DNA of 64,000 nucleotides from Chloroflexota bacterium. GTDB lineage: Bacteria > Chloroflexota > Dormibacteria > Dormibacterales > Dormibacteraceae. Made by a program: the position numbers and the translations under genes. The stretch covers positions 22,751 to 86,750 of the forward strand of contig VBGR01000056.1 of the NCBI GenBank assembly GCA_005880695.1. The letters are read 5' to 3'. A model generated the notes under the pieces. The model saw only the letters and a list, made by a program, of their open reading frames with translations. It was not told where the DNA came from and did no database searches. Positions within the stretch are counted from its first letter, which is position 1, and each line of letters starts with the position of its first letter. This document shows, piece after piece, positions 52,785 to 59,256 of this stretch.

Positions 52785-54817
52785 GCTCCGGCCCGCTCCT
52801 GAAAGCCCGGCTGCCGCACCTGCTGTACGGCGGCGACTACAACCCGGACCAGTGGCCGGAAGACGTCTGGCCGGAGGACGTTCGCCTGATGCAAGAAGCC
52901 GGCGTCAATCTGGTCAGCCTCGGGATCTTCTCCTGGTCACGGCTGCAGCCCGGCCCCAATGAGTTCGACTTCGAATGGTTGGACCGAGTGATGCACCTCC
53001 TCAACGAGGGGGGCATCAAGGTCGACCTGGCGACGGCGACCGCGTCGCCACCGCCATGGCTTACGCATCAGCACCCGGAGATGCTGCCAACGCTGGCGGA
53101 CGGCGCTCGGCTCTGGCCCGGAGCGCGTCAACATTACTGCCCGTCGAGCCCGGTCTACCGGGAAGCGGCCCGGAGCCTGGTGGAGCGGCTCTCGGCGCGT
53201 TACAAAGACCACCCGGCGCTCGTGATGTGGCACGTCGGGAACGAGTACGGCTGCCACGTGGCGGCCTGCTACTGCGACGTTTCGGCAATCGATTTCCGCA
53301 CCTGGCTGCGGGCGCGGTACGGCTCGCTCGAAGAGCTCAACCGGGCCTGGGGAACGGACTTCTGGTCGCAGCGCTATTCGGACTGGGAGGAGATCCTGCC
53401 GCCCCGCCAGGCGCCGACCTGGCCCAATCCGGGCCAGTGCCTGGACTTCCTACGGTTCAGCTCGGACGCTCTTCTCGCCTGCTACGAGATCGAGCGGACG
53501 GTGCTCTCGAGAGTCACACCCGGCATCCCGATCACGACCAACTTCATGCGGTTTTTCAAACCCCTCGACTATTGGAAGTGGGCGGTGCAGGAGGACATCG
53601 TCAGCGACGACGTCTACCAGGATCCCAGCGAGCCGGAGGCGTCCAGCCTTGAATCGGCGATGGCCGGCGACCTCATGCGGTCGCTCGGCCAGGGCAGGCC
53701 CTGGATCCTGCTGGAGCAAACCACAAGCCGCGTCAACTGGCGCCCGGTCAACGTTCCGAAGCGCCCGGGCCAGATGCGACTCTGGAGCTTCCAGGCGGTC
53801 GCGCACGGCGCGGACGGGGTGATGTTCTTTCAGTGGCGGCAGTCGCGTTCGGGAGCCGAGAAGTTCCACAGCGCGATGGTTCCGCATGGTCCGGTTGAGT
53901 CCTGGCCAGCCTGGCGCGAAGTGGTCCAGCTTGGCGCCGAGCTCGGCCGGCTCGACGCGCTTTGTGGCAGTCGCGTGCCGGCCGAGGTCGCGATCGTCTT
54001 CGACTGGGAGAGCTGGTGGGCGCTCGAGCAGCCGTCCAAGCCGTCGGCCAACGTGCGCGCGCTCGAACAGGCGCGGGCCTACTACGAGCACCTCTACCGG
54101 GCCAACATCAGCGCTGACTTCGCGCACCCGGAGGCCGACCTCAAGGCCTACAAGCTCGTCCTGGTTCCGAACCTTTACCTGGTCTCCGACGCCGCAGCGG
54201 CCGGGCTGGCCGCCTACGTTTCCGGCGGCGGCAGACTGGTCATGTCGTACTTCAGCGGGATCGTCGATCCAGCTGATCAGATCCGGCTCGGCGGCTACCC
54301 GGCTCCTTTCGTGGAGCTGCTCGGCCTGCGGGTGGAGGACTTCGCACCGCTGGCGGTGGGGGAGACGATTCCGGTCCGGTTCGAAGCGGGCCAGGTCGCA
54401 ACCGGGCAGATCTGGAGCGAGCTGATCCGGCCCGCCGGCGCCGAGGTGCTGGCGCGGTTTGAGGCAGGTCCGCTTAAAGGCGAACCGGCTGTCCTGAGGC
54501 ATACATTTGGCAGTGGCGTCGCCCACTACATCGGGACCACGCTGGATTCGATCGCAATGGGCGCACTCCTGGAGCAGGCCCGGATGGAGGCTGGTGTGAC
54601 GAGCGTTGCGGCCTTGCCTCCAGGGGTTGAAGCGGTGCGCCGCCAGGGCGACTCGGGGTCTTTCCTATTCCTGCTCAATCATCAGGATGCGGAGGTCGAG
54701 GTGGAGGCTGCGCCAGGTCTGGACGCGCTCACGGGCGAACGCATCGAGGGGGGCCGGCTCCGGCTGCCCGCCTACGGGGTCGCGATCATCAAGGAAGACC
54801 TCGCCGAGGGCCAGTAG
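52781..54817 (+). CDS. Beta-galactosidase, glycoside hydrolase family 42 (probable CTG start)
   Basis: Hydrolyses beta-galactosides; 678 residues, no signal peptide, so it acts inside on imported sugars. LLYGGDYNPDQWPEDVWPEDVRLM is the GH42 N-terminus; acid/base Glu155 in WHVGNEYGCH; nucleophile Glu312 in ILLEQTTSRVNW; ADGVMFFQWRQSRSGAEKFH follows, then the trimerisation domain and beta-sandwich end. The cysteine cluster CHVAACYCD may bind zinc, as in GH42. No ATG, GTG or TTG can start the conserved N-end; CTG at 52781 overlapping the permease stop (CTGA) can. The ATG at 52888 would remove the first barrel strand. Confidence 0.9.
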   Translation: MSSGPLLKARLPHLLYGGDYNPDQWPEDVWPEDVRLMQEAGVNLVSLGIFSWSRLQPGPNEFDFEWLDRVMHLLNEGGIKVDLATATASPPPWLTHQHPEMLPTLADGARLWPGARQHYCPSSPVYREAARSLVERLSARYKDHPALVMWHVGNEYGCHVAACYCDVSAIDFRTWLRARYGSLEELNRAWGTDFWSQRYSDWEEILPPRQAPTWPNPGQCLDFLRFSSDALLACYEIERTVLSRVTPGIPITTNFMRFFKPLDYWKWAVQEDIVSDDVYQDPSEPEASSLESAMAGDLMRSLGQGRPWILLEQTTSRVNWRPVNVPKRPGQMRLWSFQAVAHGADGVMFFQWRQSRSGAEKFHSAMVPHGPVESWPAWREVVQLGAELGRLDALCGSRVPAEVAIVFDWESWWALEQPSKPSANVRALEQARAYYEHLYRANISADFAHPEADLKAYKLVLVPNLYLVSDAAAAGLAAYVSGGGRLVMSYFSGIVDPADQIRLGGYPAPFVELLGLRVEDFAPLAVGETIPVRFEAGQVATGQIWSELIRPAGAEVLARFEAGPLKGEPAVLRHTFGSGVAHYIGTTLDSIAMGALLEQARMEAGVTSVAALPPGVEAVRRQGDSGSFLFLLNHQDAEVEVEAAPGLDALTGERIEGGRLRLPAYGVAIIKEDLAEGQ

Positions 54818-54827
54818 ACTCGCCAGC

Positions 54828-54917
54828 GGAGCGATGGCCGAGTCCGGTTGATGGCGGCGGTCTTGAAAACCGCTAGGGTGCAAGCCCTCGGGGGTTCGAA
54901 TCCCTCTCGCTCCGCCA
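54828..54917 (+). tRNA. tRNA-Ser (anticodon UGA)
   Basis: Folds to a 7-base acceptor stem (54828-54834 with 54907-54913), discriminator G and encoded CCA (54915-54917). Anticodon stem GCGGT/ACCGC with loop CTTGAAA gives anticodon TGA at 54864-54866. A long variable arm and TTCGAAT T-loop identify the serine class. It is not tRNA-Sec, which would need anticodon TCA and a longer acceptor stem. Confidence 0.95.
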
Positions 54918-54938
54918 TCTGATTATCATCAGCCGGCG

Positions 54939-55694
54939 ATGGTCGCCCAGCCAGGGTCCGGCGGCTCTGAGTCAGCCACCGACTACATTAGTCCCGAATT
55001 CGAGCCCGGGCGATTGCTCGAGTACTACCGCAAGCAGACGTCCGCCATCCGGCCCGCTGCGGCGACCAACCCCTGGGCCGCGTTCTTGTGCGTCTTCGAT
55101 CTGATGGCCCTCCAGGAGTTCGGCGCCGATCTCATTTCCGAGCTGATTGCCGACTCGTCCGGAGGAGAGCTGCCAAGCCGCATTGTGTGCCGCATCATCA
55201 GCACTGCCGAGCCGTCGCGGCAAGGTCTGCTGCAGGCCATCGAAAAGATTCGCGGCCTCCGGGTTTCCGAGGCTGATCTTGAGGCTGATGACGACCCAGC
55301 CGAGTTCGCCTCATTCAGCGCCGAATACAGCGCCACGATGGTGGCATTTGCCGACAAGCTGACTGAGCGGATCAATGGACCCGGCGACGCCCTCCAGCAG
55401 CTCGAAATGCTCGAGAGCGGGCTGGCGCGGCGAGCCGGCGGGAGAGAGAAAGCTGAGATTCGCCTCCTACTTGGCTGCCTCTCTGCTGGAGTGGGGGCAT
55501 GGGTTGTTGCAACGCTGATCGCTCTGCTACCAGGTGGCGCGCCCTTTACGCTGCAGAGGATCGGGCAGGCCATGGGGTTCGGTCTCCTCGGACCCTTGGT
55601 TGCTTATGCCGCTTTCGGTCTAGGACTGATGCTGTGGTCGATCGCGTCGAAGGTACGGAGAAAGTTGGCGAGACCAGTGTCGGGGCAGCGCTAG
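54939..55694 (+). CDS. Unknown protein with two C-terminal membrane segments
   Basis: No family recognised. The 251-residue protein starts 21 bases after the tRNA. Residues 1-180 are soluble and mostly helical (LLEYYRKQTSAIR, RQGLLQAIEKIRGLR, LEMLESGLARRAGGREK), with two hydrophobic spans at about 183-203 (LLLGCLSAGVGAWVVATLIAL) and 215-240 and a basic tail. Codon use is less GC-biased than the core genes around it, and the position next to a tRNA suggests an acquired gene. The 98 bases after it hold nothing clear. Confidence 0.6.
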   Translation: MVAQPGSGGSESATDYISPEFEPGRLLEYYRKQTSAIRPAAATNPWAAFLCVFDLMALQEFGADLISELIADSSGGELPSRIVCRIISTAEPSRQGLLQAIEKIRGLRVSEADLEADDDPAEFASFSAEYSATMVAFADKLTERINGPGDALQQLEMLESGLARRAGGREKAEIRLLLGCLSAGVGAWVVATLIALLPGGAPFTLQRIGQAMGFGLLGPLVAYAAFGLGLMLWSIASKVRRKLARPVSGQR

Positions 55695-55792
55695 GATCCC
55701 AAAGTCAACGACATCCCGACATCGCCAGCCCTTACCCCTAATGCACTAGCAAAGGCGCGGATTGTGACCCACGCACGGCCTAGGGTCTGGTG

Positions 55793-56191
55793 ATGAGCGA
55801 GCCCGAGCTGGTCCTTCTCTTCGACGGGACTTGAGGCGTCTGCACCAGGTTGGCGCGCTGGGTCCGCCGGCGCGACCGGGCCGGCCGTGTGCTGGCCTTC
55901 CCCAGTCAAAGGAGGGGCGCGCTTGTCGAGTACGGCATCAGTCCCGCCGAGGCCGAGCGGGCGGCCTGGGCGATTGCCCCCGACGCGCGCCGGTGGGAAG
56001 GCGCGGCCGCGATCAACCGCGTCCTAGAGGTGGTCGGCGGGCCCTGGGCTTTGCTTGCCCGCGCTTACCGGCTGCCTGCCCTGGCGGCCGCCGAGGAAGC
56101 GTTCTATCGCTGGTTTGCGCTGAACCGAGGCCGCTTTCATCGCTTCGGCAGCCGGCCGGAATGCGACGAGCCCGAAAGCGACTGCGTTTGA
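55793..56191 (+). CDS. DCC/DUF393 thiol-disulfide oxidoreductase with in-frame TGA: candidate selenoprotein
   Basis: The frame reads MSEPELVLLFDGT, TGA at 55832-55834, GVCTRLARWVRRRDRAGRVL and on to NRGRFHRFGSRPECDEPES. DCC proteins are named for DxxCxxC near the start (LFDGxCxxC); here TGA stands exactly at the first Cys, so reading it as selenocysteine gives DGTUGVC, a U-x-x-C redox motif at residues 14 and 17 of a 132-residue protein. Upstream and downstream parts both match the family in one frame with no other lesion. A hairpin fitting a bacterial SECIS follows (55854-55874). The alternative is a pseudogene with a nonsense change. The downstream part alone would start TTG 55850 without the active site. 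Confidence 0.7.
55854..55874 (+). other. Candidate bacterial SECIS element
   Basis: Eight-base-pair stem, 55854-55861 with 55867-55874 (one U-G pair), capped by the loop GUCCG at 55862-55866. The loop begins with G followed by U and starts 27 bases after the TGA, inside the 16-37 range and with the early-loop G expected of bacterial SECIS hairpins. The region is GC-rich, so chance stems are possible; no fold energy was computed. Confidence 0.5.
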
Positions 56192-56223
56192 ACGAGGTGG
56201 GTTGCGGCTGGCACTCTGAATAG

Positions 56224-56775
56224 ATGGCCATTCGCCGACCAGTCGCCCGGCGCTCGCTCGACCGGCGTCTCTATCACCTCATCAACGGGATCCCGCACAG
56301 CCGGCGCAGCGACCTCTACGTAAGCATCATCTCGGACCTCGGCGAGGGTGCCGGCTGGGTGGTCGCCGGGCTCTGGCTGGCGGCGCTCGACGGCCGTCGC
56401 GGGCGGCGGGCGGCGGTCGCCTCCTCGGCAGCGGCGCTGACGGCGACGCGCATCGCGCAGGACGTCCTGAAGCCGATCTTTCGCCGCAACCGGCCGTTCA
56501 TCGAGCGCGTCGCCACGGTGGTCGGTGACCAGCGCCTCGATCCCTCGTTCCCGTCCGGCCACACGGCCGCCTCTTTCGCGGCCGCGACCGCGCTGTCCGC
56601 CTTCTACCCACGGGCGCGCCCGCTGCTGTTCCTGACGGCGAGCGGTGTCGGTGTCTCCCGCATCCACCTCGGCCATCACTTCGCCAGCGACGTCGTCGTC
56701 GGCGCCGTGATCGGGCTGGCGATCGGGCTCTTCAGCGCCGGGCTAGCAGGGGCCGGAGATTCGACAGGTCCTTGA
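56224..56775 (+). CDS. PAP2-superfamily phosphatase
   Basis: Membrane lipid phosphatase-like enzyme, 183 residues. The three active-site motifs are complete: KPIFRRNRP (K-x6-RP), PSGH in LDPSFPSGHTAASFAA, and SRIHLGHHFASDVV (SR-x5-H-x3-D). Hydrophobic segments surround them; the N-terminus is basic. It could dephosphorylate undecaprenyl pyrophosphate or phosphatidic acid. The last 44 bases overlap the convergent udgX gene. Confidence 0.88.
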   Translation: MAIRRPVARRSLDRRLYHLINGIPHSRRSDLYVSIISDLGEGAGWVVAGLWLAALDGRRGRRAAVASSAAALTATRIAQDVLKPIFRRNRPFIERVATVVGDQRLDPSFPSGHTAASFAAATALSAFYPRARPLLFLTASGVGVSRIHLGHHFASDVVVGAVIGLAIGLFSAGLAGAGDSTGP

Positions 56776-57352
56776 TGAAGGCCTCCATCGCCGAATGGCG
56801 GGAGGCTGCGTCGGGTGCCCTCAGGATCGATGAAGGGTGGACTGTCGCGACGAGAGGTGGCAGGCCAGGCCGCTCGAGGAGCTTCCCGCGCTCGCGCGTC
56901 ACCTTGAAATCCCGGCCGATCAGCGCTTGGGCCGCGGTCGCGCCCAGGCAGACGACGGCTCGCGGCCGGACGGCTCGGATCTCCGCCTCCAGCCAGGGCC
57001 GGCAGGCGCTGACCTCCCTGGCGTTCGGCTTCTCGTGGAGCCGCCGTTTGCCCTGCTTTCGCCACTTGAAATGCTTGACCGCGTTGGTAACGTAGACGCT
57101 CTGCCGGTCGATCCCGGCGGCAGCCAGGCCTTCGTCGAGCAGCTGTCCCGCCGGCCCCACGAACGGCTGGCCCGCCAGGTCCTCCTTGTCCCCCGGCTGC
57201 TCGCCGACGAGCATCAGCTGAGCTCCCGCCGGTCCCTCGCCGAAAACGGTCTGGGTGGCGTCCTGCCAGAGGTCGCAGGCTTGGCAGGAGGCGGCGGCCT
57301 GAGCGAGGTCCGCGATCTCGCCACTCTCGGGAATCGGCGCGCGCCCAGCCAT
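56732..57352 (-). CDS. udgX: UdgX-type uracil-DNA glycosylase
   Basis: A 206-residue family 4-like uracil-DNA glycosylase. It has the iron-sulfur cysteines C23, C26, C117 and C135, motif A GEQPGDKEDLAGQPFVGPAG and motif B VHPSS (172-175). The insert GKRRLHEKPN places KRRLH at 102-106, the arginine-rich KRRIH-type loop of UdgX, with His106 at the position that in UdgX bonds covalently to the abasic sugar after uracil removal. So it is more likely UdgX than ordinary UDG4. Divergent from a membrane protein by 20 bases. Confidence 0.88.
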   Translation of the reverse strand: MAGRAPIPESGEIADLAQAAASCQACDLWQDATQTVFGEGPAGAQLMLVGEQPGDKEDLAGQPFVGPAGQLLDEGLAAAGIDRQSVYVTNAVKHFKWRKQGKRRLHEKPNAREVSACRPWLEAEIRAVRPRAVVCLGATAAQALIGRDFKVTRERGKLLERPGLPPLVATVHPSSILRAPDAASRHSAMEAFIKDLSNLRPLLARR

Positions 57353-57372
57353 AAGGTGATAGTAGCAATGTA

Positions 57373-58137
57373 ATGTCCGGGCGCCGTAGCATCTACGCCC
57401 TGGTGGCCCGAGCCCTGAGACCGTATGCCCTTCAGATCGGCTTTTCGCTCTACATCCCCTTCGTCCTCTTCGTCGACGGCCGAATTACGACCATCTATGA
57501 GCAGTACGCCCTCGGCCTGCTGACTTTCGCCGTGCTCTTCCTGGCCGCCAGCCTTTCGCCCTCGGCCGAGCGCCGCCAGGTCTGGCTTTGTGTCCTGGTG
57601 GCGACCGGGTTCGAAATCTTCGGCTCTCTTATCTGGGGTCTCTATCGCTACCGCTTTCACAACGTCCCCCTCTACGTGCCGCCTGGCCATGGCCTCGTCT
57701 ACCTCTTCGGATTGACTTGGGCCCGCCTGCCAGTGATGGCCAGGCACGGCCGCCTGCTGAACCGCCTCGCTCTAGCCGCCGCAACCTGCTGGGCCCTGGC
57801 CGGACTCACCGTTCTGCCGGCGCTGACCGGGCGCCTCGATGTGTCGGGCGCGCTCTGCCTGCCCTGGTTCGCCTGGTTCGTGCTCCGCTCGCCGCGGGCC
57901 GGCCTCTTCACCGGCATCTTCATCTGCACGTCGCTCCTGGAGATCCTCGGAACCAGCTTCGGAAACTGGCGCTGGGAGGCTGTCGCGCCCTACACGCTGG
58001 TACCGACCGGCAACCCGCCGTCGGTCATCGCCGGTGGGTACTGCGTGATCGACGGCACTGTGCTGTTGGTTGCCGCCGGGCTGGCCAGGCTGGCCGGGCT
58101 CAACCCCTTGCGGCGCCTCCGGCCGGCCGAAGTCTAG
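57373..58137 (+). CDS. Polytopic membrane protein of unknown function
   Basis: A 254-residue protein with seven or eight hydrophobic segments, first at about residue 22 (IGFSLYIPFVLFVDG). A conserved-looking loop YRFHNVPLYVPPGHGLVYLFG with His and Pro residues, and WRWEAVAPYTLVPTGNPPS near the end, could form a site facing one side of the membrane. No known family is recognised. It starts 20 bases from udgX on the other strand and is followed by topoisomerase IB after 57 bases. Confidence 0.72.
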   Translation: MSGRRSIYALVARALRPYALQIGFSLYIPFVLFVDGRITTIYEQYALGLLTFAVLFLAASLSPSAERRQVWLCVLVATGFEIFGSLIWGLYRYRFHNVPLYVPPGHGLVYLFGLTWARLPVMARHGRLLNRLALAAATCWALAGLTVLPALTGRLDVSGALCLPWFAWFVLRSPRAGLFTGIFICTSLLEILGTSFGNWRWEAVAPYTLVPTGNPPSVIAGGYCVIDGTVLLVAAGLARLAGLNPLRRLRPAEV

Positions 58138-58194
58138 CCTTCCCGCCGCCAGCGTTGTTGCACAATTTGATAATTTCGATATAACGTTTTATCG

Positions 58195-59256
58195 GTGGCG
58201 ACCGCGCCCGCCGATCTCGAGCTCGAGGAGTTCGCCCTCGACGAACCCGCCGAAGCCGCACGGGCCGCGGGCCTCCGCTACGTCAGCGACGCCCAGCCGG
58301 GGATCCGCCGCCGGCGGCAGGGCCGGGGCTTCGCATACGTCGGCCTGAGCGGCGAGCCCGTCCGGGAGCGGCCGACCTTAAAGCGCATCCGCAGCCTGGC
58401 GGTGCCGCCCGCCTGGACGGACGTCTGGATCTGTGCTGATCCTCGAGGACACCTCCAGGCGACCGGGCGCGACGCCCGAGGCCGCAAGCAGTACCGCTAC
58501 CACCCTCGCTGGCGGGAGGTGCGTGACGAGGCTAAGTACGGCCGCCTGCTCGCCTTCGGAGAGTCGCTGCCGGCGTTGCGGCGGCGCGTCGAGCGGGACC
58601 TGGGCAAGGACGGCCTGCCCCGCGAGCGGATCGTGGCGACCGTCGTGCGCCTGCTCGATCGCTGCCTGCTCCGGATCGGCAACCTTGAATACGCCAAGGA
58701 CAACGGCTCCTTCGGCTTGACGACTCTCCGAGATGATCACGTGGCTGTGGAGGGGTCCCGGCTCCGCTTCAAATTCCGCGGCAAGTCAGGCAAAGAGCAC
58801 GACGTTGACGTCCGGGATCGCCGCATCGCTCAGATCGTCCGCCGCTGCCAGGAACTGCCCGGGCAGGAGCTCTTTCGCTATGAAGAGGAAGATGGCGGCG
58901 TGCGGACGGTGGAGTCCGACGATGTGAACCTCTACCTGGGCGAGGCGACAGGCCAGCCGTTCACGGCGAAAGATTTCCGGACCTGGGCGGGGACTGTGCT
59001 GGCGGCCCGTGAGCTCGCCGCGATCGGGACGTTCGGGAGTGAGACGGAGGGCCGGCGCAACCTGGTGTCGGCCATCAAGGCGGTTGCCGAGCAGCTTGGC
59101 AACACCCAGGCCGTCTGCCGGAAGTGCTATGTGCATCCGGCGGTGCTCGAGGCCTATCTGGACGGCTCGCTCCTCGCCACCTGGCAAGAGGACCTCGCGG
59201 GGGACGAGCGCGGAGCGGAGCGGGCGGTGCGGGACCTCTTGAAAGCGAGGTCCTGA
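58195..59256 (+). CDS. DNA topoisomerase IB (poxvirus-like bacterial type)
   Basis: Relaxes supercoils by a 3'-phosphotyrosyl nick. 353 residues from GTG. N-terminal part FAYVGLSGEPVRERPTLKRI and WICADPRGHLQATGRDARGRKQYRYHPRW; catalytic region LLRIGNLEYAKDNGSFGLTTLRDDH (Arg), FRGKSGKEHDVDV (Lys), AKDFRTWAGTVLAA (Arg) and nucleophile Tyr312 in CRKCYVHPAVL. All are in family order. Ends in TGATG, joining the next gene. Confidence 0.93.
   Translation: MATAPADLELEEFALDEPAEAARAAGLRYVSDAQPGIRRRRQGRGFAYVGLSGEPVRERPTLKRIRSLAVPPAWTDVWICADPRGHLQATGRDARGRKQYRYHPRWREVRDEAKYGRLLAFGESLPALRRRVERDLGKDGLPRERIVATVVRLLDRCLLRIGNLEYAKDNGSFGLTTLRDDHVAVEGSRLRFKFRGKSGKEHDVDVRDRRIAQIVRRCQELPGQELFRYEEEDGGVRTVESDDVNLYLGEATGQPFTAKDFRTWAGTVLAARELAAIGTFGSETEGRRNLVSAIKAVAEQLGNTQAVCRKCYVHPAVLEAYLDGSLLATWQEDLAGDERGAERAVRDLLKARS

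Follow-up and report, generated by a model that had tools for sequence, protein, structure and literature searches.

A DCC1-like (DUF393) oxidoreductase gene with a predicted selenocysteine codon in a bacterium related to Candidatus Dormibacteraeota

In a bacterium related to Candidatus Dormibacteraeota, the gene for a thiol-disulfide oxidoreductase of the DCC type carries a TGA codon where the first Cys of the active site is expected. The locus raises the question of whether this TGA ends translation or is decoded as selenocysteine (Sec). The gene lies in the window (the whole stretch of DNA analysed, 64,000 nucleotides) and has the following features.

55793..56191, + strand: DCC1-like (PF04134) oxidoreductase gene with one in-frame TGA; the read-through product has 132 residues
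55832..55834, + strand: TGA codon, residue 14, at the first Cys position of DGxCxxC; predicted selenocysteine
55841..55843, + strand: TGC codon, residue 17, the second motif Cys, intact here and TGA in UxxU and CxxU relatives
56162..56185, + strand: C-terminal Cys pair, residues 124 and 131 (TGC 56162-56164 and 56183-56185), from the alignment of relatives

The frame 55793-56191 reads MSEPELVLLFDGT*GVCTRLARWVRRRDRAGRVL... and the conceptual translation after the in-frame TGA is GVCTRLARWVRRRDRAGRV...; the TGA at 55832-55834 is the sole internal stop and the terminal stop is also a TGA. With the TGA read as a residue, the product scores 71.3 bits with the PF04134 profile (DCC1-like thiol-disulfide oxidoreductase, DUF393; gathering cut-off 27.8), residues 8-116 aligning with positions 1-111 of 113. 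An NCBIfam profile search with the same protein gave no match. The motif of the window gene is DGT-U-GVC, which agrees with DxxCxxC only when U counts as Cys. The profile score and the single internal stop confirm the sequence-only reading of the locus, in which an in-frame TGA replaces the first active-site Cys of a DCC protein. By profile and motif position the gene belongs to the DCC family, and it carries the gene-level marks of a bacterial selenoprotein, as judged from its sequence. The first-position TGA is very probably decoded as selenocysteine.

Selenocysteine machinery of the source genome

The source assembly (2.82 Mb, 111 contigs) is 94% complete, and its SelA, SelB, SelD and tRNA-Sec are each above the curated cut-off. 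The genes selA (499 bits) and selB (348 bits) adjoin on one contig, selD (364 bits) has one in-frame TGA, and tRNA-Sec, with anticodon TCA, scores 67.5 bits against a cut-off of 47. All the components whose presence had been proposed as a check on the candidate are thus found, and the organism is equipped to use UGA as Sec. The TGA of selD stands in the context Y-S-H-G-A-G-U-A-C-K, with GGUC about 32 nt downstream by hand count (L018), and SelD is itself likely to be a selenoprotein.

The TGA might be read as another amino acid, such as Trp or Cys, through a code change or a suppressor tRNA and with no involvement of selenium, and with Cys inserted at UGA the chemistry of the motif would be preserved. 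Against this, TGA also terminates genes, among them the window gene and many relatives, SelA, SelB and tRNA-Sec are present, and the RNA signals beside the TGA described below are not seen in CxxC genes; such decoding is extremely improbable.

A tRNA-Ser with anticodon TGA, at window positions 54828-54917, precedes the DCC gene by about 0.9 kb and is distinct from tRNA-Sec.

TGA and Cys codons among relatives

Sixty DCC genes were read in Chloroflexota, comprising 20 UxxU, 5 UxxC, 8 CxxU and 27 CxxC. In all 60 the motif codons are TGA, or TGC/TGT where Cys is encoded (the filter demanded U or C there). Interchange of TGA and Cys is directly observed at both positions. Alignment of homologues had been named as a check on the first position, and that column is indeed a TGA or Cys codon in the relatives read. 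Replacement of the second Cys, together with the first (UxxU) or on its own (CxxU), was overlooked by the sequence-only reading. The selenocysteine-containing DCC protein that it put forward as a candidate is supported, and the finding is larger, with TGA at a motif Cys in 33 genomes.

Each of the 33 TGA genes comes from a different genome, with 28 of these inside the source's class and five outside it (G293, G387, G286, G397 and G195). The genus sister (G001) has the same TGA, the two proteins being 84% identical, and one genome (G006) has two DCC copies, one CxxC and one UxxU. Sequencing error is very unlikely, since the same TGA is found in the genus sister and TGA also occurs in separately assembled genomes.

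A protein search of 101 genomes (the source's own and 100 relatives) gave matches in 41. In a Pfam survey of the source's class, 45 of 110 genomes had a DCC member, and 119 of 400 Chloroflexota genomes had matches in an alignment search. Rows for the further matches outside the class from the 400-genome search, mostly not read base by base, show no stop except in G206 (one TAA). The class of G397 comprises 41 genomes, 20 with a match, and outside G397 itself no match has a stop within the aligned range. Nineteen loci in records titled Candidatus Dormibacteraeota/Dormiibacterota or Chloroflexi are 15 UxxU, three UxxC and one CxxC, and overlap with the genomes of the other counts. From record labels (palsa, pasture, depths in cm), the relatives appear to originate from soil and permafrost.

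Genes were delimited by a frame filter: frames with a stop in the 68 codons that follow the motif were dropped, and each remaining gene ended at its first later stop. The count of other stops was zero, which downstream of the motif is by construction. What is informative is the stretch of 11 codons upstream, together with the gene lengths, which are ordinary: starting from 11 codons ahead of the motif, TGA genes run for 99-135 codons to the first stop after it, a normal distance for the C terminus. Sixty-two loci entered the filter and 60 passed; the two that failed, L123 (G357) and L140 (G349), read as CxxC. G035, with the gene split across contig ends and 2 TGA in the first piece, was omitted. 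Four genomes suggested as TGA cases by stop counts (G325, G262, G283 and G349) proved to be CxxC when read by eye. Their TGA is confined to the region close to the C terminus, and they were scored as Cys.

When the motif was masked before tree building, the UxxC pair that includes the window gene grouped as sister to a UxxU pair, without firm support (95/68), and the CxxC gene of G023 lies beside the UxxC and UxxU pairs (84/66, weak); the four states need 11 changes.

selA was above cut-off in 29 of the 33 TGA genomes and in 14 of the 25 Cys-only genomes with known status (Fisher p = 0.014, the genomes being related and the events not independent). This table leaves out G104-G106, which have Cys motifs and lay outside the selA search, and ten genomes without a motif reading. 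The TGA genomes lacking selA above cut-off, G019, G033, G040 and G397 (95, 80, 63 and 77% complete, respectively), lack selB above cut-off as well. All four have tRNA-Sec above cut-off, and as selA and selB lie side by side here, one missing contig would remove both. G019, 95% complete and without selA/selB, is the least comfortable case and counts against the Sec reading.

Two sister genes, L028 (G033) and L034 (G028), have an early TGA end inside the C-terminal PEC tail and have lost the last tail Cys; the first tail Cys is Arg in L034. G397 also has a second, partial DCC stretch (G397:C114:5331-5438, L166), 81% identical to query residues 46-81; it shares a contig with the UxxU gene, at a distance of about 10 kb.

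Synonymous constraint and hairpins beside the TGA

Group A is made up of TGA genes with the FDG motif, most of which have a C-terminal PEC tail; the C-terminal Cys pair is kept in most members and is possibly a redox partner or a metal site. Among 22 group-A TGA genes, synonymous identity in codons 16-21 after the TGA was 0.95, against 0.38 expected from codon usage of the same genes. Over codons 4-21 the values were 0.77 observed and 0.37 expected, and further downstream 0.52 and 0.47 (codons 22-39), 0.48 and 0.44 (40-69) and 0.47 and 0.44 (70-109). Between the source genome and the genus sister, dS was 0.06 in codons 4-21 and 0.57 beyond. No such freezing was found in CxxU pairs, where dS in codons 4-21 was 0.82 (G027/G022) and 0.25. 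The constrained RNA stretch extends well past the simple hairpin to which the sequence-only reading drew attention.

Purifying selection acts on the remainder of the gene, with a dN/dS of 0.18 downstream of the TGA (beyond codons 4-21) between the source genome and the genus sister, and of 0.09-0.40 beyond codons 4-21 in seven other pairs tested. In the standard code a TGA is a stop, and the locus could be read as a nonsense-mutated pseudogene or a sequencing error in which the TGA ends translation. This is already contradicted by conservation: TGA stands at a motif Cys in 33 genomes, the genus sister has the same TGA, dN/dS after it is 0.18, synonymous constraint there is strong and the Sec machinery is complete. 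There is hardly any likelihood of a pseudogene or an error. A random nonsense change had been judged improbable from the position of the codon, and this is borne out by the TGA in 33 genomes and by the synonymous constraint beside it.

Purifying selection downstream of the TGA also fits translation from an internal start (TTG 55850 here, ATG in relatives), which would give a 113-residue protein without the active site and make the TGA irrelevant. ORF callers choose this start. Among 120 listed database homologues (of 426 matches), 105 are without the motif, and in 103 of them the protein begins one residue ahead of the A-R-W stretch found downstream of the motif. The part upstream of the TGA is nevertheless conserved as protein: L..LFDG is conserved, and in 30 aligned DCC sequences D9, G10 and both motif positions (U scored as Cys) are invariant and L6 nearly so. 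Nor does an internal start fit well with motif codons that are TGA or Cys in every gene read (under a filter requiring U or C) or with CxxC relatives that make the whole protein, and it does not alone predict codon constraint far stronger after the TGA than elsewhere in the gene. It is very unlikely to account for the locus. As the motif-less homologues begin just before A-R-W, annotation appears to have cut off their active site.

Two predicted hairpins lie within the constrained stretch.

55854..55874, + strand: hairpin 1, predicted SECIS; perfect stem of 8 bp with loop GUCCG (55862-55866) starting 27 nt after the TGA
55880..55896, + strand: hairpin 2; 6 bp by RNAalifold with loop CGUGU, nearly invariant in 22 group-A TGA genes

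Hairpin 1 is as first described from the sequence (a stem-loop of 8 bp, its loop starting GU 27 nt after the TGA). A perfect hairpin with its loop covering the base after an invariant UGG is present in 30 of the 33 TGA genes; G031 and G040 have a hairpin with one mismatch and G286 (UPFC) has none. The position of the loop is constant and the stems vary by lineage: CGCGCUGG/CCGGCGCG in the window gene, CGUGCGCU/GGCGCACG in G293, GCGCUG/CAGCGC in CxxU genomes and CCGCCUG/CAGGCGG in G397. In the window gene the loop starts 27 nt from the first motif codon and 18 nt from the second. These distances are 25-27 and 16-18 nt in most UxxU genes, and in CxxU genes the loop starts 17 nt after the UGA.

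In a position-specific hairpin test, in which summed energies were compared with those of synonymous shuffles, z was -8.5 for UxxU, -5.6 for CxxU, -1.9 for UxxC and -1.0 for CxxC, so that a hairpin excess is seen in UxxU and CxxU genes and not in CxxC genes. With lineage representatives, which were hand-picked (9, 3 and 3 genes), 0, 0 and 11 of 500 shuffles reached the observed sum for UxxU, CxxU and UxxC, respectively. As this test was designed after the folding-energy test and the alignments, the choice of loop position was informed by the data. The window gene's own group, UxxC, has the weakest signal of the TGA groups (a perfect stem in three of five genes), and the positional hairpin of the window gene alone is marginal (p = 0.048).

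Overall folding energy was rejected as a discriminator. For the 42 nt after the motif, mean z against synonymous shuffles was -0.72 for UxxU (n = 20), -0.96 for UxxC (5), -0.45 for CxxU (8) and -0.15 for CxxC (27), barely separating TGA from Cys genes. RNAalifold predicted no pairs when all 33 TGA sequences were folded together. In an Rfam search of 54700-56800 (E up to 1), the hits were the tRNA and two sub-threshold matches, and no SECIS.

The SECIS rule published in PMC13188914, as given in the accessible part of that review, places the hairpin 16-37 nt after the UGA with a G within the first two loop bases. It is passed by 30 of the 33 TGA genes and six of the 27 CxxC genes; G051 and G014 fail its loop requirement, and G019 passes only with a different hairpin. 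SECIS prediction had been proposed as a check: the window gene agrees with the rule, and so do 85% of 200 of its own synonymous shuffles, the rule alone being weak here. A lone stem-loop in this GC-rich gene is poor evidence, and the claim is therefore carried by recurrence of the hairpin and by synonymous constraint.

Hairpin 2 occupies the stretch GCCGGCCGTGTGCTGG, starting 48 nt downstream of the first TGA base. Of the 22 group-A genes, 20 share its initial 12 bases exactly and G009 and G387 differ by one base, and this 12-mer occurs in none of the 27 CxxC genes. The sequence was also not found in the eight CxxU genes or in G397, G195 and G286. In the RNAalifold structure, one pair of the six carries a double change and two pairs are each disrupted in two sequences. 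Hairpin 2 may help recoding, perhaps on account of the two UGAs carried by most group-A genes; yet the UxxC members keep it.

Proposed decoding, redox chemistry and known selenoproteins

The TGA of the window gene would be decoded as Sec by the organism's own SelA, SelB and tRNA-Sec. Hairpin 1, 27 nt downstream, would bind SelB with Sec-tRNA-Sec and so recruit it to the UGA. A small protein, predicted to be thioredoxin-like, would result, its U-x-x-C active site lying where the first helix begins. It may exchange electrons with disulfides through a selenenylsulfide, and selenol-disulfide exchange might involve the tail Cys pair as partner. In relatives, hairpin 1 would also serve a UGA at the second motif codon, 16-18 nt away in most of them, giving CxxU, or UxxU with a predicted diselenide. 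SelL, according to Shchedrina et al. 2007, reportedly forms a diselenide. With one hairpin in range of both motif positions, single-base changes between TGA and TGC/TGT could shift Sec without a new signal.

A wider reading can be offered tentatively, and with some doubt. The CxxC, CxxU, UxxC and UxxU states would have interconverted within one phylum, a composite two-hairpin element would let SelB decode two UGAs 9 nt apart from one signal to give a diselenide redox enzyme, and hairpin 2 would be an unrecognised part of bacterial Sec recoding.

A structure model with Cys in place of U has a pLDDT of 92.6, with the motif at model residues 12 and 15 and helix 1 at 13-25. Searches of the PDB by sequence gave nothing convincing and Foldseek gave no PDB match at E ≤ 0.001. 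VIA-align Z against the PDB was ≤ 5.7, the weak matches including many GST-, thioredoxin- and glutaredoxin-like structures.

Downstream neighbours of the gene (56224-59253) encode a PAP2 phosphatase, a UDG-superfamily protein (on the other strand), a 254-aa protein without a Pfam match and topoisomerase IB. Among 30 loci searched, these neighbours were found beside DCC only at L023, L052 (the genus sister) and L040; the last is the CxxC copy of G006, which shares PAP2, UDG and the 254-aa protein. Many flanks are short (about 1.5 kb), which limits this neighbour test, and it gives no operon partner or substrate.

The gene resembles those of known DCC1-like oxidoreductases (PF04134, DUF393, YuxK-type names) in matching along nearly the whole profile and in the position of the DGxCxxC motif. 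It and its relatives differ in having a Sec codon at the first (window gene), the second or both motif Cys positions in the 33 genes read. Compared with the bacterial SECIS model in the accessible part of PMC13188914 (Fig. 2), hairpin 1 of the window gene is within limits (8 bp stem, 5-nt loop with G first, 27 nt spacing, -14.9 kcal/mol). Unlike that model, a near-invariant second hairpin follows, and in UxxU relatives one hairpin is in range of two UGAs 9 nt apart.

The same review, of May 2026, counts 119 prokaryotic selenoprotein families or subfamilies. Its Table 1 has no entry for DCC, DUF393 or PF04134, and DCC and PF04134 were likewise not found in its text. UxxU is given in that table for Prx-like PF00578 (SelL type), metal-binding NF041115 and FmdB TIGR02605. 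These resemble the 20 UxxU relatives in having two Sec per CxxC-type motif; they belong to other protein families, PF04134 being outside the table, and the window gene is UxxC. No DCC was found in the accessible parts of PMC12013277, PMC9312934, PMC2398784 and PMC1088965. Openly licensed full text yielded no paper linking selenium to DCC, DUF393, COG3011, YuxK or Dormibacter, which does not prove absence from print. The best reading of the sequences is that these genes represent a selenoprotein family missing from the 119 inventoried in 2026, with predicted Sec at either or both active-site positions.

If true, this would add a redox family to the bacterial selenoproteome and explain many of the DCC proteins that appear in databases without an active site (105 of the 120 listed). 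Because four motif states coexist in one phylum, a single small protein would allow direct tests of the costs and benefits of having one selenocysteine or two, and of how two UGAs 9 nt apart could share one SECIS.

One motif-less homologue of 113 aa (P0111), with 64% identity, is named Gemmatimonadales bacterium, which may reflect mis-binning or spread outside Chloroflexota.
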